Below are positions 14,797 to 40,391 of a DNA stretch of 40,391 nucleotides, piece after piece; position 1 is the stretch's first letter, and every line of letters starts with the position of its first letter. Below the pieces are notes generated by a model. That model had not been told where the DNA came from. It searched no databases and saw nothing but the letters and a program-made list of their open reading frames with translations. The translations under genes and the position numbers were made by a program. Where the stretch lies: positions 1 through 40,391 of IMG/VR virus record IMGVR_UViG_3300009149_000101. One strand, given 5' to 3'. This DNA is from a virus.

Positions 14797-16169
14797 TGGC
14801 AGAAGAGACCAAAGACCTACTGCCTTCCATGGTGGCACAGAACCCAGCCCCCGCTGGGGAGGACAGCCAGGACAGGAAGCAGAAAGTTAGGGATCAAGCA
14901 GACCGGATCATGGAGGTCTTTTATCTGCTATTGCCCTCAAACTATGTGAGCCAAGTGAGGGGTCCTTTCTATTCCATCCAATTTCAAGCGGCGGCTGAAG
15001 TTTTGGCCAATTTCCAAATCACAGCCCAAGAGATTTTTGCAGATGCTTCTTTCTCTTACACTCGAACCGAATACCTCTATCAAATTCTTGGTTCCTTGGT
15101 CTTCCCTGTAGCAAATGAGAAGGGGTGGCCTACCATTGAGGGGGATGTAACCTACCGAACTTTCTTGAGAAACATGATAAATCTCCTTCTCCAAGGAGCC
15201 ACAGCAGAGACAGTTCAGGACGGCATTGAGCTTTTGACAGATGCTACTATCGAGGTGATTGAAAAAGGAGTAGAAGCCAGGAAAACTCCAAATTCAGCAT
15301 GGGGTCCTCAAGACCAATTTGTTTTTGAGATCAATGTCAGTGATACCGGTACAGTTACTTCAAATGGGGTTTTGATTGAGAGCCAAGCTTTCCCTGTGGA
15401 TCCTTTCACCCTCTATGAGAATGTTCGGATTGTTCTGAGAGCACTCAAACCAGCTCACACGTTGTATGATTACCGGCATCTGTTCACAGAGTCCTTTGGG
15501 CCTTTTTTCTCTGCCTCCCTTTCTTGGGATATGGAGAATTATTATTACCAGGATTTCCGGGGGTACTGTGTTGGGGCCAAGAAACTGATAGGAACAACAG
15601 GGGTTACCCTGACAGACCGGACTCTTTTCAGTGATGCTGCTCGGGACTTTTCTTCCCTCTCTCCGGGAGCTATCTTGACAATTCTATCCGGGGTCAACTC
15701 CATCCATGCTGGAGGCACGGAAGGTACTTCAGCATCCACAGATGAAGGATACGTGGGGAGATATCGGGTTGTGGCAGTTCTCTATTTCCCTGTAGGAGAT
15801 GATGCCACTCCGAGAGCCTACACGACAACAAGCGGGCTTTCTGGGACTGCAACAGTGAGTGGGAACACAATTGAGGATTCCAGTCAAAATTGGGCACTGG
15901 CTTTGGAAGGAGAGATCCTGACTTTTTCCAGTGGGCCAAATGCTGGATCCTATCGGTTGAAATTTTTGGAGGGGAATAATGGGGGTCCTGTTGGGTTTGC
16001 TTCAGGGCCTGCTACGAAAGTGGGGATCGCCCCCAGCCTTCTGCGTTTGAGGAGAAGGATGAAATATGCAGCCACCGGGCAGAGTTATGAGGTAACTGTG
16101 GACCGGTTGGGGAAACAAACTACTCGGGAGGTAACTGGGGAAGACGTGACCCTTTACTTTTTAACCTAG
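14796..16169 (+). CDS. gpI-position baseplate/tail protein with two C-terminal beta repeats
   Basis: The ATG overlaps the stop of the J-like gene, with GAGGAA 5 bases upstream. The N-terminal 200 residues are helical: an LLLPSNYVSQ-type start near residue 47, then FQAAAEVLANFQITAQEIFA, then a YRTFLRNMINLLLQGATAET segment. This recalls the layout of tail protein I, which normally follows J and links the wedge to fibres. The C-terminal part (about 265-430) carries two tandem copies of a small beta domain with the pattern 'D.(S)..F/W..L..G..LT..SG.N...' (AARDFSSLSPGAILTILSGV and SSQNWALALEGEILTFSSGP). That is a common motif in phage structural proteins. The I-type assignment rests on gene order and general layout and is moderate. 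An adaptor between wedge and fibre is plausible. Confidence 0.82.
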   Translation: MAEETKDLLPSMVAQNPAPAGEDSQDRKQKVRDQADRIMEVFYLLLPSNYVSQVRGPFYSIQFQAAAEVLANFQITAQEIFADASFSYTRTEYLYQILGSLVFPVANEKGWPTIEGDVTYRTFLRNMINLLLQGATAETVQDGIELLTDATIEVIEKGVEARKTPNSAWGPQDQFVFEINVSDTGTVTSNGVLIESQAFPVDPFTLYENVRIVLRALKPAHTLYDYRHLFTESFGPFFSASLSWDMENYYYQDFRGYCVGAKKLIGTTGVTLTDRTLFSDAARDFSSLSPGAILTILSGVNSIHAGGTEGTSASTDEGYVGRYRVVAVLYFPVGDDATPRAYTTTSGLSGTATVSGNTIEDSSQNWALALEGEILTFSSGPNAGSYRLKFLEGNNGGPVGFASGPATKVGIAPSLLRLRRRMKYAATGQSYEVTVDRLGKQTTREVTGEDVTLYFLT

Positions 16170-23937: not shown

Positions 23938-23995
23938 AGAACCGATAAGCTTCCTATTAAACTGGATTGGTAGGATTTGAAAATGGAGATTGAGA

Positions 23996-24646
23996 ATGAC
24001 GTTGAAAACTGCACAAGGACCTTTCTTCAGGTCAAAGCTGTCCATGAACCTGGATTCCCTCTATCAAGAAAGTTTTGCCCATTTAAAAAAGGGTCAGGTT
24101 TTCATTGAACTCAAGGATGCCAGGACAGGAAGAATTCTAGAATCTAGGGAAGAGCACAATTTGCTGACTCTGGATGCTGGAATCCTGAGTGCTAGGCTGG
24201 CTAAAGATAGCCAAGAGCCTAACTCAGGGGTGAACAATGGATTGGTGATGCTCGGGGTTGGGACGGGAGCTACAGGAAATATTCTGTCCCCGGACGCTCC
24301 TCTGGATACCCAGAGGAAACTGAACAATGAGATCCAGAGAAAAGCTTTCTCACAAACTCAGTACAGGAATGCTGATGGTGTTGCTGTGGCTTACCCCACA
24401 AACATTGTAGACTTCACAGCCACTTTCTCAGAGAGTGAAGCGGTAGGACCTTTGAATGAGATGGGACTGATGTACACAGCAAGTACAAACCCCTCAGTCA
24501 CAAATCCTATCAACAATGGCCCAACCAACTATGACCCAACAATTGATGTGACAGGTTACGATTTGATGGCAAATTACCTGACATTTTCTGTGGTCACCAA
24601 ACCGGCTACTGCAATCCTATCTCTCACGTGGAGATGCACATTTTAA
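23996..24646 (+). CDS. Small tail-fibre/minor tail protein (216 aa)
   Basis: The ATG at 23996 is preferred because GGAG (23985-23988) lies 7 bases upstream; an in-frame TTG at 23990 is the alternative. The layout fits a family of phage minor tail or fibre-associated proteins. An N-terminal strand pair (GQVFIELKDARTGRILES) is followed by a helix with NLLTLDAG, then the diagnostic LVMLGVGTGATG with DAPLDTQRKLNNEIQRKA. Strands VDFTATFSESEAVGPLNEMG follow, and the end ILSLTWRCTF resembles the 'TW.itF' terminus of these proteins. In relatives such proteins sit at the fibre or collar. It stands between two giant adhesin genes, separated by 59 bases upstream and 11 downstream. Its precise role is unknown. 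Confidence 0.84.
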   Translation: MTLKTAQGPFFRSKLSMNLDSLYQESFAHLKKGQVFIELKDARTGRILESREEHNLLTLDAGILSARLAKDSQEPNSGVNNGLVMLGVGTGATGNILSPDAPLDTQRKLNNEIQRKAFSQTQYRNADGVAVAYPTNIVDFTATFSESEAVGPLNEMGLMYTASTNPSVTNPINNGPTNYDPTIDVTGYDLMANYLTFSVVTKPATAILSLTWRCTF

Positions 24647-24657
24647 GTAGGTGACTG

Positions 24658-27600
24658 ATGGCGGTAAAGGATAAGTCAAATCATTTTGAGGGGATTGGGT
24701 CCGCAGGATCCAGTGTCCAGACCCCCAATGATGTCTCTCGGGACACTCATTTTGGGGACAGAGCCCTTCAAAATGTGGTCTGGGAGGCCGGGAAACCTAT
24801 TCTTGACTCCGAGTTGCAGATCAACCAAGATGCCACTTGGTGGCAGAATAATTTGCTTAGGAAATGGCAGGTTCCCTCTGGGTGGCTAAGAGGTCAGAAT
24901 CATTATGATTCTTATGATGATTACACTTTGGTGGATGCTCCTGCGGGGCTAGATGATGACACGGATTCAGTAGGGAGTTCCTTAGGGGGTTCTGTAGGAG
25001 GATCCGTAGGGGATGATGACAGCGGTATCCTGAATGGGAAACTGATTAATGCCATCGTGCTCCCCAGGCTTGAAGCTGTTGTTGCAGGGCATCCAGTTAT
25101 CGTGGAATACACTGCAACAGATACCAAAGGGTATAACATTGTCTCTTTGCTTCCTCCCACAGCTTATGCTGGAAGTGCTACAGTCAAAAGGACTGACTTT
25201 GTTTTCTTGGAGGTCTGGAAAGCTTTGGTGGCCCCAAGCCCCATTGCCACAGGAACTATCCAAGTAGCAGATGCTTCTTCATTAGTCGCCGGGGATACCA
25301 TTACGGTAGGTGGTGTGGCTCTCACTGCTCATGCAACAGGTGTCCCAGTGGATACCTACAAAATTGAAGCTGCCAGTGAGAGCTTGACAGCAGCAAATAT
25401 TGCAGATGCAATCAATGCTTCCGCCAACTCCTTCTCAACAATGATCACAGCTACAGTCCTGCTAGACACTGTCACTCTTTGGTCCGTAGAAAGAGGTGCC
25501 GGTTCTGTAGGACCACCTCCGACAGGGAACTTTATCTCATTGGCAGTGAATAACACTGTAGTGGGGGCAACCGCAGTTTCGGGTCCTTTCCTGACAGGTG
25601 GTGTAGACAGGCCAAATAAGCCTGTAGCTCATCAAGACAGAATCTTCAGGCACGGAAATACTTTGTGCCCCCCAAGCGTTTGTCTTGATGATGAGATGAT
25701 TGACCCACAAATCCGTGTGGAGACCTCTCAAAGAATCCAGCTCCAATATCGAATTCGAGTCACGGGAGCTTCTGAAGGGGTAAACTACAAAAAGCATCCT
25801 GATGGATTCTCCTCGAAATCCTCTGGTGCCCCTTTCGATCCTATGATTTTTGCTCAGGGTTCCAGGTCTACTCCGGCTTCCAGTGTCAGCGGGAGATACT
25901 ACCCCTTTGTCCCAGCAGATCAATCCTCTACATGGGGAAACTCGTCTGCTGTGGAATATGACATCCCGGATAATGGTTTGTGGGTTGCTGGGGATGGTTC
26001 AGAGCAATCAGCAGAAGATTTGGGGACCATGGATGGATTCGTCTATGCAATCCCAATCTGTTTCGCTTTCCGTCACAATGATGCTTCCAGTGTAGCTGGA
26101 TCTCCAAAAGGGTTTGACCCTGTCAATAATGCAAATGGGGCTCCTTTGTACACCCACACAACCTACACAGGTTTTGTGGGCGGTTCCATTCCACCCCATA
26201 AATCAGACAGGCCTGACGGGGAATTTGCTGATATTGTCACTCAAAACAACATCTTAGACCTCCGTAGGCATGTGATTTACCCAGGAATTGATCTAGCCAG
26301 TGAGCTACAGTATCAAATTCAATCCGTGTTGGATGGGAGCCTGAGAACATGGCAAATGGATATTGCGGATAAGCAGCTCATGGGAGATGACACAGGAGAT
26401 GTCTCTACCCGTTATTTGGTCTGCAATGAGATTGGAAGAGATGCCGCCAACGGAGGAGCCCCCCCCTCGTCTGGAAATACAGATAGAGGAGTCACGATCC
26501 GAAACTTTGATCATGTGGCACGTAGGTTCGGGGATCAGCCTGTTGTTGAGCGGGTTGTGGTCGCTTATTGGCCAACGGATCTGACTGGAACTGTGGATGG
26601 CAAATGGGTTGTAAAGGCGGGGGCCACTCCAACAAGATGGTATGACGGAGATGTCCTCCATTTTGACATGGAGCTTTTTGATGCCACAACTTTGAGTGCT
26701 ATTTGGCATGGTGGGACTTTGGTGGGGGCTCCAGCAGTCAGTAAGATGCTGTCAGACTTGGCTCCTCCTGGAACCCGGATTACAGATGTCTTGTCAGTCT
26801 ATCATGATGATGGACATTATGTTGCAGCAGTAAACCAAGAGACCCAAATAAAGACCATAGCTGGTCTTGGTACTCGTCATGTCGAGGTCACCTTGGATCA
26901 AAATGACACCAATGCTACTGGAGGGTTGCCCATCACTGGGCCTAATCCAGAGTATCAAATGGTGGGTAGGGCTGCTGGTCCTTTGGATGGTTCCCCAAGA
27001 AGAATTTTCTTGGAACTGGAAATCACATATCCTCTTGGAGCGGGCACAACGGACACTCCAGATTGGCCTCAATCCCCAGACACCACAATCTATGATGGGT
27101 CGGTCAATGCTGGCCCCGGTCCTGTAGTAGAAGATGACATCACCCAGAGGCCAAATGACCTGGAGAGTTTGATTGCTCCTAAGTTCCGGGCAGGTTTCCG
27201 GGAAATTCAGATTGATCACTACACCAATGACACCCTGGCATATGCTGCGGGTGGGGCTCATCCTGGGATTCCAGTTGGGCAGTTGGTTGAAGAAACCATT
27301 GTGAGCCGGAATCAATATGATCTCTACTACCCCAGAAGGGTCTTTGGAGATGCTACCCATACAACCACAGTGGAAGACAAAGGGGATGCCCTGAACTTGG
27401 TTACTGTGGATGCCCCCAACACAGAATTTGGCTCCAGCTCCAGGAAAGTTACCCTGGAAGTTGGAACCCCACTCTCTGGGGCACAGACTCAATGTGCTAT
27501 CGAATACTTCCCCCAAGATCCTGTTCCTAACTATGGGGCACTTGGGTGGCAATTGTCTGTCTACTATAGGTCAAATGTCCCTCAGACTGCGGGAACAAAA

Positions 27601-28242
27601 GAAGGGGACGTGACAACAAGTGGAGATGGAGTTCTACCAACAACCTTGAATGTGGAGCCTCTCTACTTCAGCCCAGAGATGTGGACAGGTCAAGTGGGTA
27701 TGGGTTCCACAGATATTGCATACCCTTACGCTGCTCCTTTGGACCAGATCCCCGTTAATGACAATTTGGGGAACATCACTGAGGAATGGTATTTTGCCGC
27801 TACAGCATCCACTACGGTAGATGACTTCGATGCAGAAACAGGGCTGTTGAATCTCCACCCCTTTGTTCAGGGAGATGTTCAGAATGTCTTGACTTTTGGT
27901 GGGACCTCCATGGGAGAGCCCCCAGTCAAGGATGCTGAATTCAGAGCCTACTATCCAGTAGCTGATGATGCCTCTTATCGGCCTACGATTATGGGGCAGC
28001 CTCTCTTCGGGTCCACTCGACACAAAGTGTTTGCCCCTTTCTTGGCGCGGGCCACTGAGGATGTACCAGGAGTGGATGGTGGTGGACTCTTGTACCGAAA
28101 AGATGAACTTCTGCTGATCGTTCTTTGTAGATTTGCAGAGTTGGATGAAGAGAATACTGTAAGGTTTGTGGACACAGATAACACAACTTGTGCAGCTTTG
28201 TACAGAACCAGAAATCTGTTACTGATGGTTGGAGGACAATAA
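24658..28242 (+). CDS. Giant tail/baseplate protein, KPxLDSEL-type N-terminus (paralogue of the 38089 gene)
   Basis: The protein has 1,194 residues. It begins with a segment containing VVWEAGKPILDSELQINQ (residues 40-57), then a Gly/Ser/Asp linker near 100-120 (SSLGGSVGGSVGDDD). A domain at about 199-318 (TIQVADASSLVAGDTITVGG through an IADAINASAN helix) has the pattern of a small beta domain frequent in phage tail proteins. Blocks RIQLQYRIRV (359), GTMDGFVYAIPICFAFRHND (457) and FADIVTQNNILDLRR (523) recur in the same order in the gene at 38089. The KPILDSEL segment resembles by eye the 'QLDADWNEQ' stretch of DUF6519-type tail-associated proteins, but this needs a profile search. The second half is beta-rich and unrecognised. 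It is probably a virion attachment platform for fibres; this is inference. Confidence 0.87.
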   Translation: MAVKDKSNHFEGIGSAGSSVQTPNDVSRDTHFGDRALQNVVWEAGKPILDSELQINQDATWWQNNLLRKWQVPSGWLRGQNHYDSYDDYTLVDAPAGLDDDTDSVGSSLGGSVGGSVGDDDSGILNGKLINAIVLPRLEAVVAGHPVIVEYTATDTKGYNIVSLLPPTAYAGSATVKRTDFVFLEVWKALVAPSPIATGTIQVADASSLVAGDTITVGGVALTAHATGVPVDTYKIEAASESLTAANIADAINASANSFSTMITATVLLDTVTLWSVERGAGSVGPPPTGNFISLAVNNTVVGATAVSGPFLTGGVDRPNKPVAHQDRIFRHGNTLCPPSVCLDDEMIDPQIRVETSQRIQLQYRIRVTGASEGVNYKKHPDGFSSKSSGAPFDPMIFAQGSRSTPASSVSGRYYPFVPADQSSTWGNSSAVEYDIPDNGLWVAGDGSEQSAEDLGTMDGFVYAIPICFAFRHNDASSVAGSPKGFDPVNNANGAPLYTHTTYTGFVGGSIPPHKSDRPDGEFADIVTQNNILDLRRHVIYPGIDLASELQYQIQSVLDGSLRTWQMDIADKQLMGDDTGDVSTRYLVCNEIGRDAANGGAPPSSGNTDRGVTIRNFDHVARRFGDQPVVERVVVAYWPTDLTGTVDGKWVVKAGATPTRWYDGDVLHFDMELFDATTLSAIWHGGTLVGAPAVSKMLSDLAPPGTRITDVLSVYHDDGHYVAAVNQETQIKTIAGLGTRHVEVTLDQNDTNATGGLPITGPNPEYQMVGRAAGPLDGSPRRIFLELEITYPLGAGTTDTPDWPQSPDTTIYDGSVNAGPGPVVEDDITQRPNDLESLIAPKFRAGFREIQIDHYTNDTLAYAAGGAHPGIPVGQLVEETIVSRNQYDLYYPRRVFGDATHTTTVEDKGDALNLVTVDAPNTEFGSSSRKVTLEVGTPLSGAQTQCAIEYFPQDPVPNYGALGWQLSVYYRSNVPQTAGTKEGDVTTSGDGVLPTTLNVEPLYFSPEMWTGQVGMGSTDIAYPYAAPLDQIPVNDNLGNITEEWYFAATASTTVDDFDAETGLLNLHPFVQGDVQNVLTFGGTSMGEPPVKDAEFRAYYPVADDASYRPTIMGQPLFGSTRHKVFAPFLARATEDVPGVDGGGLLYRKDELLLIVLCRFAELDEENTVRFVDTDNTTCAALYRTRNLLLMVGGQ

Positions 28243-28245
28243 TCC

Positions 28246-31200
28246 ATGCCTCGCAATGATAATCCAGGAGACATCGGGGTAGGCTCAGGGCGTACAGTAC
28301 CTAGCTCTCCGAATACTCTCACAATTTCAGGTGGCGCTGTATCTTCTTCAGAGCCTTTGCCTCCAGGAGATTCCCAGGCATTGGCCGCACACATCCATAG
28401 CATGAGTGCTCACCCTGCAAGAGGGATCACCACAGATGGCCATCCTGATCTCTTGGTGTCTTCCCATGTGGAAGGTGTGATTGACGAGTTGTCAGGAACT
28501 TTGCCTCCTGAGCCTCCTCAATTGGGGAAAGTTTTTAAGCACTTGGATTTCCATTCCTTGCCAGACTGGGGTGTGATTAAGTTAAATGACACCTCCCTCC
28601 AGTACCGGGATAATGTCCATCAATGGAGCAATGACCCTGCTGAGGTCTACCCTTATTACCATGTGTTTCCAAATCCAACACAAGATTGGGGAACTGATGA
28701 CGGGGAGTTCCGTCCAAGTTATTATGACCCCCTAGCTTCGTCTGCTCCTGAAGGTGGGGATCCTTTTGCAGATCGCTATTGGAACTATCCCTCTACGGAT
28801 CTCGCCGCAGGAGCCGGAACCTTTTCTGGTGGGCCAGGGTGGGTCTATTCAGGGGCTTACACGGATCCCATTGATGGGACTCTTCAAAGATCCTTATTCC
28901 TGAACCCTCAGATCAAGGTGGGACCGGGCCTCAATACTTTATGGCCCATGGTCACCCTATCCGGGGCTCTCTATCCGGCAGACAGGGGTGTCTTGTCTCT
29001 CTTGTACTTCCCTCCAGAGGGCACTGACTCCGTTAATTTCCTGGCACAACCACTGTTGACCCGGTGTGTGGCAGCGTTGTTATTGGGTCAGGGTTTGGCT
29101 GGAGATCCTTGTATGACCTTAGAGAGTGTGGGTGCAGGTGGGCAGGGATCTCCATGTGATGGGGGTCCTGGAGGAATCTTTGCTGTTGGTGAGGATAGTG
29201 AAGGATACTATGATCCGTTTGCTTTCCCTGGTAGAGCTACAGGACAGTACAATCTTGATGAGATCCATGAAGGACTGAATATTGATGGGGTAACCCTTCC
29301 TGTTCCATGGGATGATTACAATTTGAGTGGGACAGCTGGAGCCAAAAGGCAAATAAACTCTCACATCACGGCAGCGGGCCAAGTTCGCTTGGGTTCTGAT
29401 GCAGACGCTGGAATTGCTGTTGTTCCTTGGGGCATCCCAGTGTTGGGAGCCACAAACAATGCCTATGATGAGACTGCGGGAGCTTTGGATACCATTATCT
29501 ACCCGTCAGGAGCAGGGGTCCCAGTTACAATCAAATATGTTGGACATTCTGTTGTTCAGGATCCAAACTTTTTCCAGTATCGCCTTCCTTATCTGAGTGA
29601 CTACTCTGAGGAGACCGGACTGAGAGACACCCCAAAGGGATTGGACCCTTCGGCCACAATGGAGGCAAAGAGGTTCTTTGATCCCCATACCTACCATGAT
29701 CTTCCTGTCAGTGGTGAACCTTATCAATGGAGTGGTGGAACGTTCACTATGACCAGGGCAGGGAATTATCCAGACTTTGGGCATGATTACAACCCCTGGC
29801 AGCTCTCACGCTACCGCCACACCTTCTTTATGAGTGGGAAATCTTTGGTGTCTGCCCCTGTGCCAGCAACCCCCTTCGAAATAGGGACCTATATGCTGGT
29901 GCATTTCAAGACTGAGAAGGATTTTGAAGAGATGGTGCGGGACGGAGATGTTCCCGTTTCTGTCTATGGAGCAAGTTTAGTACCGGGGACTGGGCCAGAC
30001 GATCCGCAAAATATAGTCAACAAACTTCTAGCGGCTTCGGGGTCCACTCCTCCTTATGGCCCAGCCCCGGCTTATGGTTACAGTGCGCCTCCAGAGCATA
30101 GGATTCACACCAAAGGCTTCCTGGTGGACTCCACAGACCAAGAAGTGGTTGATGGAGACTTCACAGTGGAAGGATTTGGGTGGGAGGCTCTTGGTGCAGG
30201 AACAGGAAAAGTTGCCATCTCTGGGATTACCTATATGACGCCGTTGGATCTGGCGGGGGCATCTTCTTTCCGTATCACTGATTTGGATGTCCAAATTGCA
30301 GATGCTTGGAATGGGGTCTATCGGTCAAATGACCAAACTCGGGTATTGGGTTCCGCTCCTGCCCTGATCAATGCACCAAATCCTGCTTTCCTAGGAGTGG
30401 CTCCCTTCTCTTACGGATCAACTCCCACATTTACTACACCTTTAGGTTTCACAGATGCCTGGGGGAAGAGAGAGCACAGAATAGAGTTCCCCTACAATTA
30501 CTTAGGGTCCTTCAGTGAAGCTGTAGGTCCGACAGCAGCTGACAGTTTGGACATGGCGTTAGGAGTGGGAAACGAGATTACCTTCTCTGGGGATGAGACT
30601 ACACCCTCCTTTTCCACAGATGCCGCCTTGTGGTGTTTTGTGAGAAGGCCCATTGGGCACTCTTTTTGGGAGACTACAGTATCCCCGAGACCTCGATTAA
30701 TTGGAGGTCTTCAGCAAGGGCACGGTGTGAAGCTGACCAGTGCTTTCAGTACAGTGGGAGCAGCTCATGTGGGGTGGAAAATCTTATATCACTCCACATC
30801 TTGGAACACGGGGGCTGCTACAGCTTCTTACGGGAACTATGTGGATGGGGCAAATGTGGCATATGCCAGTTTGCTGACTGCCAACAAAGACAAAGAAGAG
30901 AAGTTCCTGGATGAGATTTACCGCTACCTCTCCCCTTGGGGCGCAGGTCTTCCCGCAGGAGTTCAGAATCATTTGGTCGGACCTGGGATGAATGGTTGGG
31001 CAAGTGCCCCCATTGAAGTTCCTGTAAGAGCGGGATCAGCAGTTGCTCCTTGGGTTACTTCTTCTTGGGTCCAGTCCTTGAGTCATGTGAAACTCCTCAC
31101 AGGGGGTACTGTGACAGATGAACTTCAGGTTGCAGGTTTGCCTGAGAGGAACCCAACAATTCAATCCTGGGTAAATGTACCATTCCCATCCGCCGGATTG

Positions 31201-31932
31201 TTGAGATACCCGGCAGTGGATTATACCACAGGGTATGAACCGAGTGCGCTCCAGGCAGTGTTCCAACCTGACTACTCAACAGCAACAGGGATCCGAACAT
31301 GGAACCGAGCTTTTGACGCCTCCTTCTCCAGGTCTACAGTTGGGACCAATGGGTTTGCACCCGTTAAAGCAGCTGGGCAGCCTTTTGTAACATTTAGGCT
31401 GGATGGCATTAAGTTGGAGGACTTTTCCTTCACTGCTCCTGGACCAGGAGGGCTTGGGAATCAAAAGTATGCTATCATGTGTAAGGTTCCTGGCTTGACT
31501 TCCTGGATGGACATCGGAAGAAGAGATGGAGCTGGACCAAGCAAACTGGACCCAGCTTTAGATGGTGCCGGTTGTCAGGTAGTTGGGGCTTACACATTTG
31601 AAGCTCTGGACACGGAAACAGGGTACTGGTATTGCCAAGTCAAGGTCAATGTTGGTCCTACGGTCAATTTATTCGAGTCCACGAATGAGGAGGTTCCCAT
31701 CCTTGTGAAAGTGATCATGGATGAGGTTCCAGACGGTGAGTATGATCTAACCCAACAAATGACAACTGGAAGCTGGACAACATTATTTGGTCCGGGTTTG
31801 GACCCGGATGATGTACGAGGGCTCATGGGAGTGAAAGTGGCTCATACCACTGAGATCATTACCAAGCCCACACAGGATACAACTTTGCAAACTTCGTTCA
31901 TTACTGCCATTCCAGGTGGTCTGAGCAAATAA
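28246..31932 (+). CDS. Giant virion structural protein with VxGxIDEL fibre motif
   Basis: The protein has 1,228 residues and starts three bases after the preceding stop. The N-terminal 40 residues are a Pro/Ser/Gly-rich flexible segment. Residues about 46-85 contain ALAAHIHSMSAHPARGI and SSHVEGVIDELSG, matching a helix-turn-strand linker motif seen in many phage fibres. The rest is beta-rich, with many Tyr, Trp, Pro and Asp and a Cys/Gly-rich stretch near 285-315. No enzyme motif is seen. The C-terminal 200 residues look like one or two jelly-roll-like domains (FVTFRLDGIKLEDFSFTA; YWYCQVKVNVGPTVNLFES). It lies between two other giant fibre-like genes. A fibre, spike or whisker subunit is likely, but the family is not recognised. 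Confidence 0.86.
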   Translation: MPRNDNPGDIGVGSGRTVPSSPNTLTISGGAVSSSEPLPPGDSQALAAHIHSMSAHPARGITTDGHPDLLVSSHVEGVIDELSGTLPPEPPQLGKVFKHLDFHSLPDWGVIKLNDTSLQYRDNVHQWSNDPAEVYPYYHVFPNPTQDWGTDDGEFRPSYYDPLASSAPEGGDPFADRYWNYPSTDLAAGAGTFSGGPGWVYSGAYTDPIDGTLQRSLFLNPQIKVGPGLNTLWPMVTLSGALYPADRGVLSLLYFPPEGTDSVNFLAQPLLTRCVAALLLGQGLAGDPCMTLESVGAGGQGSPCDGGPGGIFAVGEDSEGYYDPFAFPGRATGQYNLDEIHEGLNIDGVTLPVPWDDYNLSGTAGAKRQINSHITAAGQVRLGSDADAGIAVVPWGIPVLGATNNAYDETAGALDTIIYPSGAGVPVTIKYVGHSVVQDPNFFQYRLPYLSDYSEETGLRDTPKGLDPSATMEAKRFFDPHTYHDLPVSGEPYQWSGGTFTMTRAGNYPDFGHDYNPWQLSRYRHTFFMSGKSLVSAPVPATPFEIGTYMLVHFKTEKDFEEMVRDGDVPVSVYGASLVPGTGPDDPQNIVNKLLAASGSTPPYGPAPAYGYSAPPEHRIHTKGFLVDSTDQEVVDGDFTVEGFGWEALGAGTGKVAISGITYMTPLDLAGASSFRITDLDVQIADAWNGVYRSNDQTRVLGSAPALINAPNPAFLGVAPFSYGSTPTFTTPLGFTDAWGKREHRIEFPYNYLGSFSEAVGPTAADSLDMALGVGNEITFSGDETTPSFSTDAALWCFVRRPIGHSFWETTVSPRPRLIGGLQQGHGVKLTSAFSTVGAAHVGWKILYHSTSWNTGAATASYGNYVDGANVAYASLLTANKDKEEKFLDEIYRYLSPWGAGLPAGVQNHLVGPGMNGWASAPIEVPVRAGSAVAPWVTSSWVQSLSHVKLLTGGTVTDELQVAGLPERNPTIQSWVNVPFPSAGLLRYPAVDYTTGYEPSALQAVFQPDYSTATGIRTWNRAFDASFSRSTVGTNGFAPVKAAGQPFVTFRLDGIKLEDFSFTAPGPGGLGNQKYAIMCKVPGLTSWMDIGRRDGAGPSKLDPALDGAGCQVVGAYTFEALDTETGYWYCQVKVNVGPTVNLFESTNEEVPILVKVIMDEVPDGEYDLTQQMTTGSWTTLFGPGLDPDDVRGLMGVKVAHTTEIITKPTQDTTLQTSFITAIPGGLSK

Positions 31933-31944
31933 TTGAGGTCATAG

Positions 31945-34900
31945 ATGACTTTCGATCCGACAAAAGATAATCTTGGAGCCCCTGCTTTAACATCCCCCAC
32001 GGCAAATGGTAGGGATAGGTGGCAGGAGTATTTCTCTCGTTTGCAAGCGGTGCCTTCTTCTAAGGTGGTGCAAGCTGCGGACGCCTTGAGAGATTTCTCA
32101 GGTTCTTGGGCAGCTCAATATCAGAATGGCCCGAGCATCCAGGACAATGCCTCCACCCCGAATACCCAGATCCCGGCAGGGGATCTGGTCAAGGTGTCCA
32201 ATCTTGGGCGGGCAGGAATGCCGGAGATCAATTTCACTCCCTTTGCCCATGGAACAAATAGAATAGGGAACAAGGGTGGAGCATTAATTGGATCCCCAAT
32301 ATCTTTCTCCATTGTAGGGCCAACCCTCAAATGTGGACGCCATCTGAATTGGCAATGGTCTGTGATCGATAATAGTGGGTCCCCGAATGGAGATGTTTTA
32401 CTTCTTTACACTTCTTTGTTGAGCCCAACGGCAGCATTTTTCCCTGTTTTGACAGGAGGTATTGAAGAAAGATATGGGTTCAGTGATCTTACCGACTTTG
32501 ATGGGGGGTTGTACCTCATTATTTCAGAGACAGGCAATCCGGGGGATTTGACTGATGCAGCAGCTCCCGTTGAAGGTGGGATTGGGGATGGTGCCTCTTT
32601 AGGTGTAGGGGGTTTGACTCCTATCACACCCAATGATGCCTTTGCTAAATATGAGATCTTCCGGGTTACAGATGTGAACCCTGCAACTGGTTTGGTGTTG
32701 GACCCCAACAAGAGGATTGCTGATTACTTTACCTTTGGAGCGGGTCCAAACCATACAATCAGAGCCATCACTTTGTTCAGGCCAGCAGCTACCCGTCTTT
32801 TGGCCATCCCGGATTCAGGGGATACTGTGGGCGGGGAGCAAGTTTTCATGTTTGCTTCTCCCGAGAGAGCCTTGGCAGATGACCAAGGGTATCCCTATGA
32901 GGGTCAGAATGATGCGGGAACAGCTGATGGTTGGACTTCCTCGGTTTTCCAGGAGCACAGCTACACAGATCCAGTCTATACCAGCAATGGAGCTTTTGAC
33001 CCCTACACCGGGTATGAGTTCTCTTTAATGCCCCGTCTCCCGATCCCCAGGCCCTTGTCAAATGGGACAGGGAGGATCCCGAATTCCACAGATGTGGCAA
33101 TCACAGATGCCGGTCCTGGAAGAATGAATGTGTATAGCACAGACACTTCCCCGGACGCTGGGCAGATTATCCACATCACAGAAGCTGTCCTGGCAGAGGG
33201 GGCAGTGCTCAAACCCCAAGGAGCACCCGCAAGAAAAGCTAGTTTGGAATCTTTGTTGGGTTGGTTTGAGGTAGTAAGAACAGAATACCCAGCGGCCAAC
33301 TGGTTTGTTGTCCGTAGAATCAACGAGAACAATCCTCAGACCGGTATTGCTTACTGGGGGGTTCCATTACTGCTCCGTTCTGCTAATGCAAATGGGATCA
33401 ATCTCAATTTCACTCTCCATGATCCAGTATCCACTTTGTGGAGGAGCACCTCGAATAACAGCTTTGACATAGACAAAGTGGGTTCTGCCAGGATTACAAA
33501 TTTGATTGACCCCAATTGGGTTGGCAGGTCCGTGAAGGAAGGTGTCTTTGGCTCCTCTCCACAACGGGCTGACAAGGCAATCTTCAATACGGAGTCCAGT
33601 AATGCAGGAGTAGCAGGATCAAACTCCAATCCAGGGAGTTTGTTGGATCTCGGTTTCAGGGTTGTGCTCTACCCAGCGAAATCCAAAACAATCACAATTC
33701 CGGACCCATATCCCGGAGCCCATATCGCAGACCCTGAATGGGCAGATACACAGACCATTGATGTTTTGGTCCCAGATTGGGATCGCCCAATTACTTCCAA
33801 TGAGGCTTTGATTGATTCCACGAAACCGGAAGAAAAACAGTATATCGAGGTGGACTATGCCAATGGTTTTGTCCGTCTATCCCACACCCCGAGTGCAACA
33901 GGAGGGGATCTGAGTCCTAAGACAGATATCTCTTCCCACGATGACAACCCCAGAGGGGAAATGGTTCTGTTTGCCTCCTGTGTGCCATACACACAGGAGA
34001 AGAGTCAGGTTGGTATTGGTAACCGGGTTACGGTAGGTCAAGACCCCTACAAAGATATGCCAGGATCAGATCCTTTTGTACCCACCGCTGTGGAGCAAGT
34101 GGATGCTTTTGGAGAGAGAGTAGTTTTCCCTCTGATCGCCCAAGCGATTACTTCTGGGGTTACCCAAGGTGGAACCGGGGCTGAAATTGTTCTGAGCGGA
34201 TTGGTTGCAGACCAACTTTCTCCTTCTGGTTTCTTGGAAATCATGGAAGCTAAGGCGGGGGGGGATCCTATCTTTGAGACTGCTGAGCATAGAGGATCTG
34301 TTTTCGGGTACAATTGCATGACAGAGGTGGCAGGGAATACCCACCTCCAAATGACATTTGGTGGTGGACTTTCCGGGGTGGATGTCCAGGCGGTAGAGGA
34401 TTATGTTCCTTACGTGGCAGTTCTAAGAAGAGATTTGCTACTTCCCAGCTCATTGACAGGGGAAGCGGGTCTTCCTTACCAATATGACACATCTTATGGG
34501 GATGCCAAAAGAAATTCTGCAATCAGGTTTGCTGAGGGAGAAGCTTCTCCAAATATCGATGGGACCACGACATTGGACATCAATGGCAGGAAGCTTACTC
34601 AGCTCAAAGAACTTTGGAATGATATCTATTCCTCCGTTTTGTTGAGTGGGGCAGAAGTCTCCACTCAAACTGTGGGTGGGGTTCCAGCTATTGCCCATGA
34701 GAGCGGCTTCTATGTCTATCAAGGCAGAAGGAAAGAACTTCCCGCAGGAGTGACAGCATGGCCGGTTGGGAGTGCCACCTACTATTTCTATATTGATGGG
34801 GCTACTGCTACTGTCCTGAGCACAACAGCCCTTCCTTTGTCTGACGAGGATGATATCCTATTGGCAAAGGGTGTGGTGACCATTGGGGCACCCAACTCAG

Positions 34901-37269
34901 CCGTATGGACTGACCTGAGGAATCCTCTGGTTGATATCGATAAGCGTGTGGACATCTTTGTGGGGAAGACCGAGAATCCCCATGGTCCTGAGTTTGATGT
35001 TCCACATTTTGACAATCTAGCTGCGGCTGTAAAATATGCAAACAATCTGCAAAACCCAGATAATGGGGATCCTGACAGGAGAATTCGGATCCGGGTTATC
35101 GGCTATACTGAGGAAGCAGATGCTGACCTCCCAATCGAAATTGGGATGGATGGGCTGATCATTGAGGGATCTCCCAGGGTGGGGGCTTCTGATGCAGATA
35201 AGGTGGAGCTTCGCTGGTCCCACGACACAGAATCTTTGATTGATATCAATGGGCACCATGGTTTGGTGTTCAGGGACCTCGGTTTCCGGTGGGTTTCAAC
35301 AAATCCAGCTACCATCGATGTGAACACTACTCCTATTCGTTCGGTGTTCACAAACAATGGTGGAGGGGCAAACAACCCCTCTAACAACATTGTGATCCAA
35401 AACTGCCGAGCCACCGGAAACATGCAAGGATTCATTGGGATCCTCAATGGAGGCTATTTCCAGGATTCCACAATCATCAACAATGTGGGAACAGATATGC
35501 TGGATTATGGAATCTTGTTAAGGGCAGAGGATGCAGGGGGTCCTGTTTTCACTAAAGCATGTGAAAACACAGTTATTGAAAACAATCGTTTTGAGCAGGA
35601 TGCTTCCCCAGGGAGCATGATCAACCCTGTAACGGGAGAAGGAAATGCTGCTGGAATTTTGATTCACGGATATGATGCTGGGGTTCCATCTAGGATCCCA
35701 TTCAATGCAGGAGATTCCGGGACTGTTGTTGTAACAGGAGCAGCTTGTACAATAGTACAATCTGGGGATCCTACCACTGCTTTTGTTGTTCCTCTTGGGA
35801 ATACTGCAAATTTCTCCAGGGCTGGAAATATTATTACAATCTCATATGCAGCCCTTCCACCAATAGCCATCACTACAGGAGAGGAGATTGAGGTCATCCC
35901 GGATGCAGGAGGTACTGCTGTAATCCATGTTGGTGCGGATTCCTTGACTTTTGATGCTACAGGAGAAGTAGGTCTGATAAAATTGAATGCTTCTGATGTC
36001 GGGACAGTTTGGGGTAACTATATTTGGTATTCCAACCAAGGACTCAGTAGTATCTATTTGAATGTGAATAACAGAATAATTCATAACTCTACTGAAGGGT
36101 TCCATGTGGGGATCTGGTCTGATATTATGTGGCACAGCCATGTTTCAGACAATGATGTCCAGGATACAAATACCGCAGGAATTTTCTTAGCCCATTCAGG
36201 GGGAAATGAAGTTAGTAAAAACACCCTTAGCGGGATTCATCTATCGGCCTCTTCTCTTCTTCCTATTGAGGATGGTTCCCTTCCAGGGATTCGTGTGGAT
36301 GGGCAGTTTGACAAAATTCTTGGGAATTATGTTGTGATGGGTCAAACGGGTGCCCTTGTAAGAGACATTGATGTACCTTTGAATGGGTGGGCTCACATTG
36401 AGGAAAATGTGGTAGGCCTGAGGATCCATGCCCTTGGTGGAGACATTTCAATCAGAGGGAATTTTGCTCCAAATATCAATGTTGGGATCTCATATGCAAA
36501 AATTGAGGGTAACTTTGCTTCTGCCATCACTTGTATTTGGAACTCTCCTTATGCGAAAGTCACCAATAATGTAGTAACTACAGTAACTTGGACAGGGACT
36601 TCCGAGGATACCCTAATCCAAGGAAACACTATTGGTGGAATCCTGACTGTAAACTCATTGTGTTTCAGAAATAACATCTCTGACAACCGAATGGATACTC
36701 TTGCGTTAACCGCCGACACCTGCATCATTAAAGGAAACTATGTCCTCTCAGCGGCTACCATCGATGCCGCTGATTGTGTTGTGGAAAGTAATACTTCAGG
36801 GCCTTCCGTCAGTTGGTCCTTCACAGCAAATTCAGAGAGATCCATAATTACAGGGAATAAGATGCCCCAGCTTCTGTCCCTTGGGGAGTCCTCAACTATC
36901 ACTGGGAACCATATCATTGGGATTATCCTCAATGCGGGGACTGGTTTTATGAGGGTTTCTGGGGAAAACAGCAATGTTACGGGGAACACAGTTACACTTG
37001 CAGCAGCTATTGGAGGGTCCGGGCGTATAGAGGTGAATGCAGATGGGTGCGTCCTTAATGGTAACCGGTTGGATGAAAACTTGGAATTCGACAATGCTAT
37101 TGTAACAGGAGTGGTAAGCGGGAACTTCATTGACGGGGTTATCCTAAGACTTGGGTTGTTACCAATTTTGCCAGATGACCCACAAGATATCATAGTGGTA
37201 GCTAACAAGGTCACCTCGATCTTCACAGTTGGTTCAGACAATATCCGCATTGAAAACAACGGGACGTAA
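31945..37269 (+). CDS. Giant tail fibre/tailspike ending in a right-handed beta-helix ladder
   Basis: The protein has 1,774 residues; GAGGT lies 5 bases before the ATG. Residues 1-850 are unrecognised and beta-rich. Residues about 910-1000 have a fibre-type domain (SGFYVYQGRRKELPAG, YYFYIDG, ILLAKGVVTIG, DLRNPL). From about 1018, FDNLAAAVKYANNLQNP and IEIGMDGLIIEGSPRVGA open a pectate-lyase-like right-handed beta-helix, interrupted by an inserted beta domain near 1255-1345. Residues about 1484-1774 hold some fourteen short repeats of 17-25 residues centred on GN or NN (IRGNF, IEGNF, IQGNT, IKGNY, ITGNK, ITGNH, VTGNT, LNGNR). That pattern suits an Asn ladder inside a beta-helix. The protein ends within the ladder. 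It is probably a receptor-binding or glycan-recognising spike. No catalytic acids are assigned. The two stop codons TAA TAA directly precede the next ATG. Confidence 0.88.
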   Translation: MTFDPTKDNLGAPALTSPTANGRDRWQEYFSRLQAVPSSKVVQAADALRDFSGSWAAQYQNGPSIQDNASTPNTQIPAGDLVKVSNLGRAGMPEINFTPFAHGTNRIGNKGGALIGSPISFSIVGPTLKCGRHLNWQWSVIDNSGSPNGDVLLLYTSLLSPTAAFFPVLTGGIEERYGFSDLTDFDGGLYLIISETGNPGDLTDAAAPVEGGIGDGASLGVGGLTPITPNDAFAKYEIFRVTDVNPATGLVLDPNKRIADYFTFGAGPNHTIRAITLFRPAATRLLAIPDSGDTVGGEQVFMFASPERALADDQGYPYEGQNDAGTADGWTSSVFQEHSYTDPVYTSNGAFDPYTGYEFSLMPRLPIPRPLSNGTGRIPNSTDVAITDAGPGRMNVYSTDTSPDAGQIIHITEAVLAEGAVLKPQGAPARKASLESLLGWFEVVRTEYPAANWFVVRRINENNPQTGIAYWGVPLLLRSANANGINLNFTLHDPVSTLWRSTSNNSFDIDKVGSARITNLIDPNWVGRSVKEGVFGSSPQRADKAIFNTESSNAGVAGSNSNPGSLLDLGFRVVLYPAKSKTITIPDPYPGAHIADPEWADTQTIDVLVPDWDRPITSNEALIDSTKPEEKQYIEVDYANGFVRLSHTPSATGGDLSPKTDISSHDDNPRGEMVLFASCVPYTQEKSQVGIGNRVTVGQDPYKDMPGSDPFVPTAVEQVDAFGERVVFPLIAQAITSGVTQGGTGAEIVLSGLVADQLSPSGFLEIMEAKAGGDPIFETAEHRGSVFGYNCMTEVAGNTHLQMTFGGGLSGVDVQAVEDYVPYVAVLRRDLLLPSSLTGEAGLPYQYDTSYGDAKRNSAIRFAEGEASPNIDGTTTLDINGRKLTQLKELWNDIYSSVLLSGAEVSTQTVGGVPAIAHESGFYVYQGRRKELPAGVTAWPVGSATYYFYIDGATATVLSTTALPLSDEDDILLAKGVVTIGAPNSAVWTDLRNPLVDIDKRVDIFVGKTENPHGPEFDVPHFDNLAAAVKYANNLQNPDNGDPDRRIRIRVIGYTEEADADLPIEIGMDGLIIEGSPRVGASDADKVELRWSHDTESLIDINGHHGLVFRDLGFRWVSTNPATIDVNTTPIRSVFTNNGGGANNPSNNIVIQNCRATGNMQGFIGILNGGYFQDSTIINNVGTDMLDYGILLRAEDAGGPVFTKACENTVIENNRFEQDASPGSMINPVTGEGNAAGILIHGYDAGVPSRIPFNAGDSGTVVVTGAACTIVQSGDPTTAFVVPLGNTANFSRAGNIITISYAALPPIAITTGEEIEVIPDAGGTAVIHVGADSLTFDATGEVGLIKLNASDVGTVWGNYIWYSNQGLSSIYLNVNNRIIHNSTEGFHVGIWSDIMWHSHVSDNDVQDTNTAGIFLAHSGGNEVSKNTLSGIHLSASSLLPIEDGSLPGIRVDGQFDKILGNYVVMGQTGALVRDIDVPLNGWAHIEENVVGLRIHALGGDISIRGNFAPNINVGISYAKIEGNFASAITCIWNSPYAKVTNNVVTTVTWTGTSEDTLIQGNTIGGILTVNSLCFRNNISDNRMDTLALTADTCIIKGNYVLSAATIDAADCVVESNTSGPSVSWSFTANSERSIITGNKMPQLLSLGESSTITGNHIIGIILNAGTGFMRVSGENSNVTGNTVTLAAAIGGSGRIEVNADGCVLNGNRLDENLEFDNAIVTGVVSGNFIDGVILRLGLLPILPDDPQDIIVVANKVTSIFTVGSDNIRIENNGT
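36394..37266 (+). repeat. GN-ladder beta-helix repeats in the giant tailspike
   Basis: About fourteen degenerate units, each about 17-25 residues, carry the pattern hydrophobic-x-(G/N)-N-x-hydrophobic. They include IRGN, IEGN, VTNN, IQGN, ISDN, IKGN, VESN, ITGN twice, VTGN, LNGN, VSGN and IENN. At the DNA level the units have diverged, so the repeat is visible only in protein. Confidence 0.7.
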
Positions 37270-37272
37270 TAA

Positions 37273-38076
37273 ATGAGAGTCATAGCAGACCTGAAAAGTC
37301 ATTTTGATGGGGACCCCAAAATCATCCAGGTGGAGAGAATCCCCTCGGAGAATACCACAGGGACAGCAATCAATGGAAAATTCATGCTCCCCATTTTGGA
37401 TGGGGTAGATTTTCCTATTGATCAGAATGATTACATTCTTCCTGTGGATGGTGGAGATCTGTCCAGTATCTCCTATGCCCATCTGTTGGCGTCTTACCCC
37501 ATGTTCGGGCATGTCTACTTCAATCCCTTGTTGATTGACACGGATGTGGATGACCTGGACCTTACAGCTACGTTTAGGGCGGAACAGACACCCCCGGCAG
37601 CTCCCATCTACCATCCTACAAGGTGTCAGACGGGTAGAGAGTCCACTTCTTTGTTAGATACAGGGCTAGTTCCAAATAATACTGCACTTTTACCACAAAA
37701 TAATGCGATAACTCCAGCTCATCCTGGTATCCTAATAAGTCAGGAGATTGATCTCACACCATACACGGGAGCAATTGGAACCGATGAATTTATGCTGTAC
37801 TGGAAATTGTATTCCTTCCAGAACTCTCACGATGTGGCTGCTGATTTTGGGTTACTCTCTGGGTCAAATACCCCGGCTTTTCGGGACATTCATGAGACCA
37901 GCGAGGAGCCTAGTGGGTTATCCGCCTATATTTCGCCTGATAATGGAGTGCATTGGTGCTCAACAGGATACCTGGAGCCCATTGCCTTCACGACAAAAAC
38001 AACTGCAATTCGGTTAGCTTTTAAGAATACCGGAACTGCAAAAGTTTACCTTTCCACCTTTGGTGTTTTGTTCTAG
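37273..38076 (+). CDS. Fibre-associated protein (267 aa), unknown
   Basis: It begins three bases after the tailspike stop; those three bases are a second TAA. The N-terminal 90 residues are mixed alpha/beta (MRVIADLKSHFDGDPKIIQV). The C-terminal 120 residues have a beta-sandwich look (SQEIDLTPYTGAIGTDEFML, LSAYISPDNGVHWCS, AIRLAFKNTGTAKVYLSTFG). That suggests a jelly-roll or carbohydrate-binding-like fold, but no family is identified. Because it directly follows a spike that ends abruptly within its beta-helix, it could supply the tip or act as an accessory or chaperone; this is inference from position. Its stop overlaps the next gene's ribosome binding site (TAGGAGA). Confidence 0.83.
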   Translation: MRVIADLKSHFDGDPKIIQVERIPSENTTGTAINGKFMLPILDGVDFPIDQNDYILPVDGGDLSSISYAHLLASYPMFGHVYFNPLLIDTDVDDLDLTATFRAEQTPPAAPIYHPTRCQTGRESTSLLDTGLVPNNTALLPQNNAITPAHPGILISQEIDLTPYTGAIGTDEFMLYWKLYSFQNSHDVAADFGLLSGSNTPAFRDIHETSEEPSGLSAYISPDNGVHWCSTGYLEPIAFTTKTTAIRLAFKNTGTAKVYLSTFGVLF

Positions 38077-38088
38077 GAGAAGACAAAT

Positions 38089-40391
38089 ATGGCTCTCAAT
38101 TTTGGTACAGGAGTCTCAAGAACTTTGGACGCCTCTTTGAGGCAGTTTTCCACAGTTCTCTGGCAAAAGAATAAGCCTCCTTTAGACAGTGAGTTGAACC
38201 TGATGGGGCAGGTGGATTGGGATAACTTGAGGAAGGTAGTTAGCACTGCAATGCCTTCCGGGTTCCTGACGGACCCCACCAGAGCCTCTGAAGAATATCA
38301 GACCAACCAAGCTTGGGCGAACCTTTTTAAATTGGGGAACCCCCGGACAGTTTTGGGTGCTTTGGAAAGTGCTGAACAATCCCCAGTAGTGTGGGCAAAT
38401 GTCAACGGATGGCTGATTCCTGTTGTGGGGACAGAAGTGAATACTGAGGGGGATCTCTCCAACAACATTAAATTGTATCCTCCCCCAGAGTCTGATGCCA
38501 GGATTGATTATGTCTTTCTAGAGGCATGGCAGACAAGAGTGGATCCAAATCCTTCTGCTGTCAATAAACCTTCAACCTCCACCGTCTGGAAGTATGGAAA
38601 CGTCCAGTATGGTGGAACCAACATTACAGATGACATTGAAGACCCCACCATTGGGTTTGAGACCACGGGGAGAATCCAAGTTCAGTACCGAATTCGAGTT
38701 TATGGGCAGGGAGTTGGCCTGGGGGCATCCGTAGCTTTGGACCTTTATCCTGATGGCCTGGGTGACCCAAGCATTCTTGGACGGGGGGTATCAACCACTC
38801 CTGTAGCCGGGATGCCTTTTGAGAACATGCGGGAAGCTTTAGGAGACCCTTCTTTGTGGAGGGCTGGAGATGGGGACCCCAACAATAGTTTGGGAACCAT
38901 TGACGGCTATGTGTATGCCATCCCCATTTGTGCCATTTTCCGTAGGAATTCCTTGGTTTACCGGGCTGTAAATGAGTCTGGTAACCCAAACCAAAATGGA
39001 GCCTTTAACAGGACTCCAGGTTCGAAAACTTTGCCAGATCCATTGGATGGCGCACGGATTCTTACTACAGCTACACTGACAAGTGCCTTGAGTCCTACAG
39101 CGGGGGCTTCTGCTGCCTATGATATGAGTGTGACGAACCTTTCCGGGTCAGGCTTTGATGACTCCTCCCACACCCTTACCAGTGTTTTCATGGTCATTGA
39201 TAACGAGATCCTGTCCTTGAGTGCTGTGAGTGTCATTTCCAACACAATCACGATCCCTTCCGGGGGAAGAGGGAGGTTTGGTTCCGCTGCTGTTGGACAT
39301 GCAGCAGGAGCAACTATCCAATTTTACAATTCCCGTCCAGATGGTTTGTTTGCCGATCAGATTGCTGACACAGATATCCTGGATCTCAGGAGAGCTGTCA
39401 ATGACCAGGATTGGGACTACACCAGACTCCTGGAGAGTGGGGTAACGTCCTTGTTGAGAGGTGACCTGCACTCCACTTGGAAGAAGTCTGGAGTGGGTGA
39501 TACTCAAGGTCCTCTGGTCCATGAAGTGGACCATCTGTATGCTGGCGGAGCAACCCACCCAAACCACACAGAGCCTATTGACGGACCTGATGGGGTCAGG
39601 ACAGTATGGTCTGATGCAGCTACCATTCAGCCGGATGTCACTATGCTTTTGGACAATGAAGCAGTAGCGGTTGACGGGATTGTTTCCTCCTTTGATGCCA
39701 ATGTTGACTGGGATGTTGGGGCACCTTTCCAACCGGGCGGATTTATGAATGTCGCCGGATTATCCGATACTGAATCCTTTGCCAATGGAACTTCCCTCTT
39801 TATCTACCTCGGGGGAACTGATGGCACAGGAGGAGCACGGGGCACGTTCCGGGATGGGACTACAAGAGCAGTAAGAGCTTTGATGCCAAAAGAATACTGG
39901 AAAACAGGGTATCCTATTGTGGATCCTTTGAATGGAAACCAGTACCCATTTTCTTTGAGATTCATTGATCAACGGGCTCATGAACCCGCTCCCACAGGAA
40001 TGACCGCAGCAAATACTGCCAAGCATGTTGGGCCTATGTATCCTTGGCAGCCTCTGAACTTTGAGTACCCCTATATCGTTTTGGGAGGGGTCCTCGAAAC
40101 AACCTTGAGGAAGACTGGGATCTTAATCACCGGGTATAGTGAAATCACAGATGCAACTCTAGGAAAGATTGTGGAGTTGGATATCGGTGTCAATTTTGAC
40201 ACTCCGGGGACCTACTACAGCAAAGATTCCTACGGGAATTTTGAGAATGACCCCACCCAGGTAACAAACCCATTGTTGAGGGATTCCGGGACTCTGTTCG
40301 GAATGCTCACCAATGATGGTAAAGACCGTTCTGGAATGTCTTCTGAGGTCTACGTGGTAATCTATGGGGATGACCTCAACAGTGACAACAA
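38089..40391 (+). CDS. Tail/baseplate protein paralogous to the 24658 gene, 3' end cut by window edge
   Basis: The frame is open from the ATG at 38089 to the right edge (767 complete codons), with GGAG at 38076-38079 nine bases upstream. It shares four ordered blocks with the 24658 gene: VLWQKNKPPLDSELNLMGQ (residues 24-42), RIQVQYRIRV (195), GTIDGYVYAIPICAIFRRN (269) and FADQIADTDILDLRR (420). Between the last two it carries a different insert containing VIDNEILSLSAVSV and GGRGRFGSAAVGHAAGA. That insert matches a small domain common in phage tail proteins ('...IDdEi.l...RG..GT.a..H..G'). It is likely a second virion attachment platform or adhesin base built on the same N-terminal scaffold. 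The C-terminus is not seen. Confidence 0.88.
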   Translation, partial: MALNFGTGVSRTLDASLRQFSTVLWQKNKPPLDSELNLMGQVDWDNLRKVVSTAMPSGFLTDPTRASEEYQTNQAWANLFKLGNPRTVLGALESAEQSPVVWANVNGWLIPVVGTEVNTEGDLSNNIKLYPPPESDARIDYVFLEAWQTRVDPNPSAVNKPSTSTVWKYGNVQYGGTNITDDIEDPTIGFETTGRIQVQYRIRVYGQGVGLGASVALDLYPDGLGDPSILGRGVSTTPVAGMPFENMREALGDPSLWRAGDGDPNNSLGTIDGYVYAIPICAIFRRNSLVYRAVNESGNPNQNGAFNRTPGSKTLPDPLDGARILTTATLTSALSPTAGASAAYDMSVTNLSGSGFDDSSHTLTSVFMVIDNEILSLSAVSVISNTITIPSGGRGRFGSAAVGHAAGATIQFYNSRPDGLFADQIADTDILDLRRAVNDQDWDYTRLLESGVTSLLRGDLHSTWKKSGVGDTQGPLVHEVDHLYAGGATHPNHTEPIDGPDGVRTVWSDAATIQPDVTMLLDNEAVAVDGIVSSFDANVDWDVGAPFQPGGFMNVAGLSDTESFANGTSLFIYLGGTDGTGGARGTFRDGTTRAVRALMPKEYWKTGYPIVDPLNGNQYPFSLRFIDQRAHEPAPTGMTAANTAKHVGPMYPWQPLNFEYPYIVLGGVLETTLRKTGILITGYSEITDATLGKIVELDIGVNFDTPGTYYSKDSYGNFENDPTQVTNPLLRDSGTLFGMLTNDGKDRSGMSSEVYVVIYGDDLNSDN

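Follow-up and report, generated by a model that had tools for sequence, protein, structure and literature searches.

The window analysed here, the whole of IMG/VR virus record IMGVR_UViG_3300009149_000101 (40,391 bases, positions 1 to 40,391), carries two large genes, A (protein P0001) and B (P0002), that probably encode ancient paralogous tail-tip proteins serving as two specialised baseplate anchors for fibres in huge contractile-tailed phages. This reading is based on the homology between A and B, their obligate pairing, their co-divergence, their operon position, and the remote homology of their common N-terminal core to the DUF6519 domain. The two genes lie on the same strand, separated by 9.8 kb. 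B is incomplete because the record ends within it; its complete relatives comprise about 1,325-2,150 residues.

The original prediction had drawn attention to four short blocks occurring in the same order in A and B. All four could be located in both genes (Table 1), where they form part of a much larger region of similarity. The two proteins align by BLASTP in three colinear segments (E 3e-18, 3e-8 and 7e-7). Relatives were gathered for both (107 A-type and 102 B-type, duplicates counted), and a profile-profile alignment with hhalign of 62 A-type against 61 B-type proteins gave a probability of 100 and an E value of 1.2e-81. Because 447 columns are aligned, the similarity extends well beyond the four blocks, in agreement with the paralogy that had been proposed. 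Excluding inserts, the core has about 350 residues and consists of an N-terminal helix around KPxLDSELN, followed by the beta elements VFLEVW, QYRIRV, DGxVYAIP and LDLRR. AlphaFold2 monomer models (predicted local distance difference test scores of 86.7 for A and 79.8 for B) display helices and strands in identical order throughout the shared region, without differing folds, the elements being paired via the sequence alignment and not by superposition. Helices 51-71 and 546-559 of A thus correspond to 33-54 and 444-457 of B, and strands 179-191, 358-368 and 462-471 to 138-151, 195-205 and 274-285. Profile comparison revealed no similarity of the core to the neighbouring proteins P0003-P0008 and P0014. 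Near-identity at the DNA level had also been pointed out. The word cgaattcgagt is indeed present in both genes (at 25750 in A and 38689 in B), encoding R-I-R-V inside the second block, and it is their longest common word. This was over-read, however: as 279 of 300 synonymous-codon shuffles give a shared word of at least 11 bases, it is uninformative on how recent the duplication is.

The distribution of the pair points to a considerable age. Scanning viral contigs with P0001 or P0002 as single proteins yielded no relatives, an alignment being needed as query, and whole-protein Pfam and PHROG scans of A and B gave only insert-level or weak matches. A search for copies outside the window had been proposed, and such copies do exist: in a sample of 26 long viral records (203-619 kb; matches in one reading frame taken as one gene), 23 contain exactly one A and one B and three contain one gene, although some of these records may be near-duplicates. 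In all of the 50 fetched loci that contain both copies, the two share a strand, and the median gap between them is 5.9 kb. The records G012 and G013 (the LR745208 genome) depart from this order, with B about 50 kb before A. In a phylogenetic tree, A and B fall on opposite sides of a single branch (support 98.6 for B and 82 for A), and their sub-clades mirror each other. When two very distant rows are added, the A clades and phage Tunturi_5 are left unresolved against B. Distances among the A proteins correlate with those among the B proteins in a set of 30 phages (Mantel r 0.89, p 2e-4), and each protein is nearer to its counterparts in other phages than to its paralogue. Given the two clades, the mirrored sub-clades, the correlated distances and the presence of both genes in 23 of the 26 records, the duplication is ancient and took place before a large group of huge phages radiated. 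The A-B pair looks like standing equipment of this group and not like the product of a recent duplication.

Each core is interrupted by a small domain, before the RIQ block in A and after the VYAIPIC block in B, at the places originally predicted. The A insert is present in one of two A sub-groups and absent from the other. The B insert is found in the B-type alignment rows and represents a small domain that is recurrent in other phage tail proteins. It also has a weak sequence match to the hub protein of JBD30; for this reason, the fold match of B to JBD30 was not counted as evidence on the core and was dropped. In the distant homologues from Thermosipho (L194) and Clostridia (L202), the core has longer breaks at or near the B insert site. 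The core tolerates extra domains at fixed places, and the two inserts, both of them small phage domains that recur, are lineage features rather than recent decorations. The idea of a duplicated and decorated scaffold therefore stands as regards the duplication of a common scaffold, while the event is neither local nor recent and the inserts are ancestral to sub-lineages. Between the C-terminal parts of A and B no relation was found. Proteins of the A type are conserved to the last residues, with a pair identity of 0.49 over the final 54 residues; B relatives have identities of 0.46-0.54 at 1901-2100 and a single variable stretch at 1501-1800.

A first indication of function comes from DUF6519 (PF20129), which a 2026 study named eBAP5 and described as an N-terminal domain anchoring the tail fibres of extracellular contractile injection systems to the baseplate; the study related eBAP3-5 to the crown of thylakoid contractile injection systems (tCIS) and to TssK, and DUF6519 carries its own insertion of roughly 200 residues (PMC12923769). 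Aligned with hhalign to nine DUF6519 proteins, the A/B family profile gave a probability of 96.2, an E value of 2.2e-9 and a score of 77.1; the best of 119 column shuffles scored 25.5. With three DUF6519 proteins the score was 56.3, while 200 shuffles reached no more than 24.0 and a reversed control gave 22.8. The aligned stretch covers the helix motif at the N terminus, VFLEVW and QYRIRV, in colinear order. DUF6519 stems from bacterial injection systems, whereas A and B are from phages, and the A and B inserts appear to lie at other places than the DUF6519 insertion. Gene position is in line with this relationship: in annotated plasmid loci of Streptomyces, DUF6519 comes after gp25, a gene for baseplate assembly and a further gene of tail or hypothetical type, so that DUF6519 and A occupy the same position after gp25, baseplate J-type and P2 I-type genes, the last role presumably being filled by P0014. 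Single DUF6519 proteins gave no match to solved structures. On sequence grounds, the N-terminal core of A and B is remotely homologous to DUF6519.

A connection to a second domain, DUF4815 (PF16075), is more indirect. The DUF6519 profile matches ORF65 of phage 812, a DUF4815 protein in the solved phi812 baseplates. The N-terminal helix motif of DUF4815 is in register with the A/B core, and gp673 of phage G matches both profiles. Compared directly, the family has a weak profile match to ORF65 (score 31.2, shuffle maximum 23.8) and no significant match to a cyanophage DUF4815 pair (score 17.8, shuffle maximum 24.2). The B model matches the phi812 baseplate chains 9eui_Q (E 5.8e-6) and 9euj_G (E 3.5e-5), from entries that contain ORF65; these chains may be ORF65 or TmpF, and TmpF gave no profile match as a phi812 relative of the family. 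The Anabaena tCIS crown (eBAP4, 7b5h) and TssK of the type VI secretion system are also among the fold matches of B, at E 0.3-0.4; no sequence match to them was found. Their occurrence agrees with the published eBAP3-5 relation, but is not significant by itself.

Other members of the family include gp211, gp420, gp423 and gp431 of Bacillus phage G, all of which also match the A model, and gp247 of Tunturi_5. Phage G has about five family genes and Tunturi_5 has one; in neither are they arranged as an A-B pair. The phage G protein gp420 (L097:11784-17816) contains two partial core copies in tandem within a single protein of 2010 residues. In gp673 (L098:6329-9427), an N-terminal DUF4815-like motif is combined with GH113 glycoside hydrolase and polysaccharide deacetylase domains, and this protein may be an example of what such an anchor carries elsewhere. 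The core of the Clostridia homologue (L202:9539-15802) is interrupted by a long insertion, and the protein has an NHL-repeat propeller region.

From 10139 onward, the genes of the window make up a contractile-tail baseplate module, in the order P0013, P0011, P0014, P0008, P0006, P0007, A, P0003, P0004, P0005, B. Most have counterparts in LR745208 (uncultured phage, 485 kb), and dozens of loci have the arrangement gp25, baseplate J, P0014, P0006, P0007, A, P0003, P0004, P0005, B. Directly upstream of A is P0007 for at least 44 of 78 distinct A genes, and directly downstream is P0003 for at least 69 of 91; P0005 directly precedes at least 44 of 76 distinct B genes. These are lower bounds, since the remainder are mostly unrecognised reading frames. 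In one locus (L021), P0007 is followed directly by B, and A, P0003, P0004 and P0005 are absent, as if deleted between the paralogues, although the gene may be a chimera of A and B or the gap may stem from faulty assembly. Family homologues in bacterial contigs come after what appears, by inspection, to be the same baseplate module. A- or B-type genes also occur in contigs binned as Altiarchaeales, Terriglobia, Actinomycetota and Spirochaetes (L180, L181, L183, L186-L189), which are probably huge-phage contigs misbinned into metagenome-assembled genomes. Elsewhere in the module, P0014 and P0006 (14796-23936) are separate, with P0008 between them; LR745208 (L005:12518-17809) and certain other relatives have a single fused frame instead. 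Both P0008 and P0004 are rich in beta structure and may be beta-helical, and their profiles match weakly (hhalign score 31.7, probability 1.5). At the start of the window, the 5'-truncated P0009 (1-6042; more than 2,000 residues) has no family matches; a homologue of 2,683 residues is encoded on the opposite strand of LR745208.

Table 1. Genes, domains and sequence blocks in the window (aa, amino acid residues).
Feature	Position	Strand	Evidence or remark
Gene A (P0001), first paralogue, 1194 aa	24658..28242	+	BLASTP, hhalign; orthologues in 100+ viral loci
A shared N-terminal core, about aa 26-572, insert included	24733..26373	+	hhalign to B profile; model helix 51-71 and strands
A inserted small domain, about aa 196-316	25243..25605	+	Insert relatives match phrog_28344, E 5e-8
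A C-terminal part	26374..28239	+	Conserved among A-type proteins
Gene B (P0002), first 767 aa	38089..40389	+	Cut off by record end
B shared N-terminal core, about aa 8-466, insert included	38110..39486	+	hhalign; model
B inserted small domain, about aa 322-415	39052..39333	+	phrog_1101, E 2.5e-6; phrog_11439 in a relative
KPxLDSEL block	A 24793-24816; B 38173-38196		
RIQxQYRIRV block	A 25732-25761; B 38671-38700		
GTxDGxVYAIPIC block	A 26023-26061; B 38893-38931		
FADx6ILDLRR block	A 26224-26268; B 39349-39393		
P0013, gp25 / sheath-initiator-like baseplate protein	10139..11317	+	PHROG 1.6e-5; below Pfam cut-off
P0011, baseplate J-like protein	11320..14796	+	PF04865, E 7e-18
P0014, phage G gp189 homologue	14796..16169	+	Tail_P2_I position; putative role
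P0008	16207-18315		Between P0014 and P0006
P0006	18324..23936	+	Fused to P0014 in LR745208 and some relatives
P0007, phage G gp190 homologue	23990..24646	+	phrog_5417, E 9e-17; usually adjoins A upstream
P0003	28246..31932	+	Usually adjoins A downstream
P0004, beta-helix (NosD-like) fibre or spike candidate	31945..37269	+	Variable C terminus
P0005	37273..38076	+	Usually adjoins B upstream

If A and B are anchors, their core would be a phage form of a class of baseplate anchors to which DUF6519/eBAP5 belongs. Through this core both proteins would be docked on the baseplate, probably as trimers, close to gp25, baseplate J and P0014. Fibres and spikes such as P0004 would then be attached at two distinct points or layers, owing to the differing remainders of A and B. 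The trimeric state, the contact partners and the holding of different fibres by A and B, like the mounting of different adhesins in the original prediction, are predicted features. The original interpretation is supported in part; its virion-docking role finds support in the remote homology of the core to a domain that anchors to baseplates and in the operon position. Several observations weigh against an anchor role. The alignment with DUF6519 is confined to the first half of the phage core, the second half being without alignment. The core is below the Pfam gathering cut-off for DUF6519, with no match in the window or in six aligned members, and also below that for DUF4815, with no record over it and a best aligned member at E 0.13. 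The structure matches of B have TM-scores (template modelling scores) of 0.14 or less and may involve TmpF or part of a chain, and the A model has no significant match among solved structures. Finally, A and B are only presumed to be present in the virion. A bolder view, which we regard as possible rather than probable, is that of an obligatory two-anchor baseplate, in which A and B are non-interchangeable and serve different fibre sets; their ancestral anchor would be common to DUF6519/eBAP5 and, via DUF6519, to DUF4815, in a superfamily spanning phages and injection machines.

Other roles have to be weighed against that of fibre anchors. The duplicated, diversified fibre-like baseplate proteins gp9, gp10 and gp12 of T4 offer a precedent, as an analogy of role only, and A and B might similarly form structural baseplate rings or arms, passing on the contraction signal and carrying no adhesins. 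The obligate presence of both genes, and the conservation of A to its C terminus and of B relatives along most of their length, would fit such a function. We nevertheless consider it unlikely, as some domains of distant homologues are glycan-active, lectin-like or of the propeller type, and a fibre-anchor role has been described for DUF6519 (PMC12923769). That A and B are themselves receptor-binding tail fibres, each with a host receptor of its own, is improbable. They do follow the baseplate genes, as tail fibre genes would, and the homologue in Tunturi_5 carries a tail fibre annotation; however, their C termini are conserved across divergent phages, and neither A nor the B relatives have the fast-changing C-terminal tip expected of a receptor-binding protein. 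Because A, and the B relatives except for one stretch, are conserved along their length, they resemble scaffolds more than receptor-binding tips. It is P0004, a beta-helix candidate with a weak NosD match, that has a variable C-terminal half, common to few relatives, and it appears to be a better adhesin candidate than A or B. There is hardly any chance that the resemblance of A and B reflects a recent local duplication in this phage lineage, an explanation suggested by their common strand, their proximity and the 11-base word. It is refuted by the trees, in which A and B are each closer to the counterparts of other phages than to one another; the word is within the expectation of synonymous shuffling, and the inserts are common to lineages.

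With the interpretation of A and B as fibre anchors, two proteins without a Pfam match and with only insert-level PHROG matches now have a testable role. The family enables the annotation of tail-tip genes in huge uncultivated phages, and the link between its core and DUF6519 joins a component of these phages to an anchor of injection machines that has only recently received its name. From the conserved pair, two distinct fibre docking sites are predicted on the tails of these phages.

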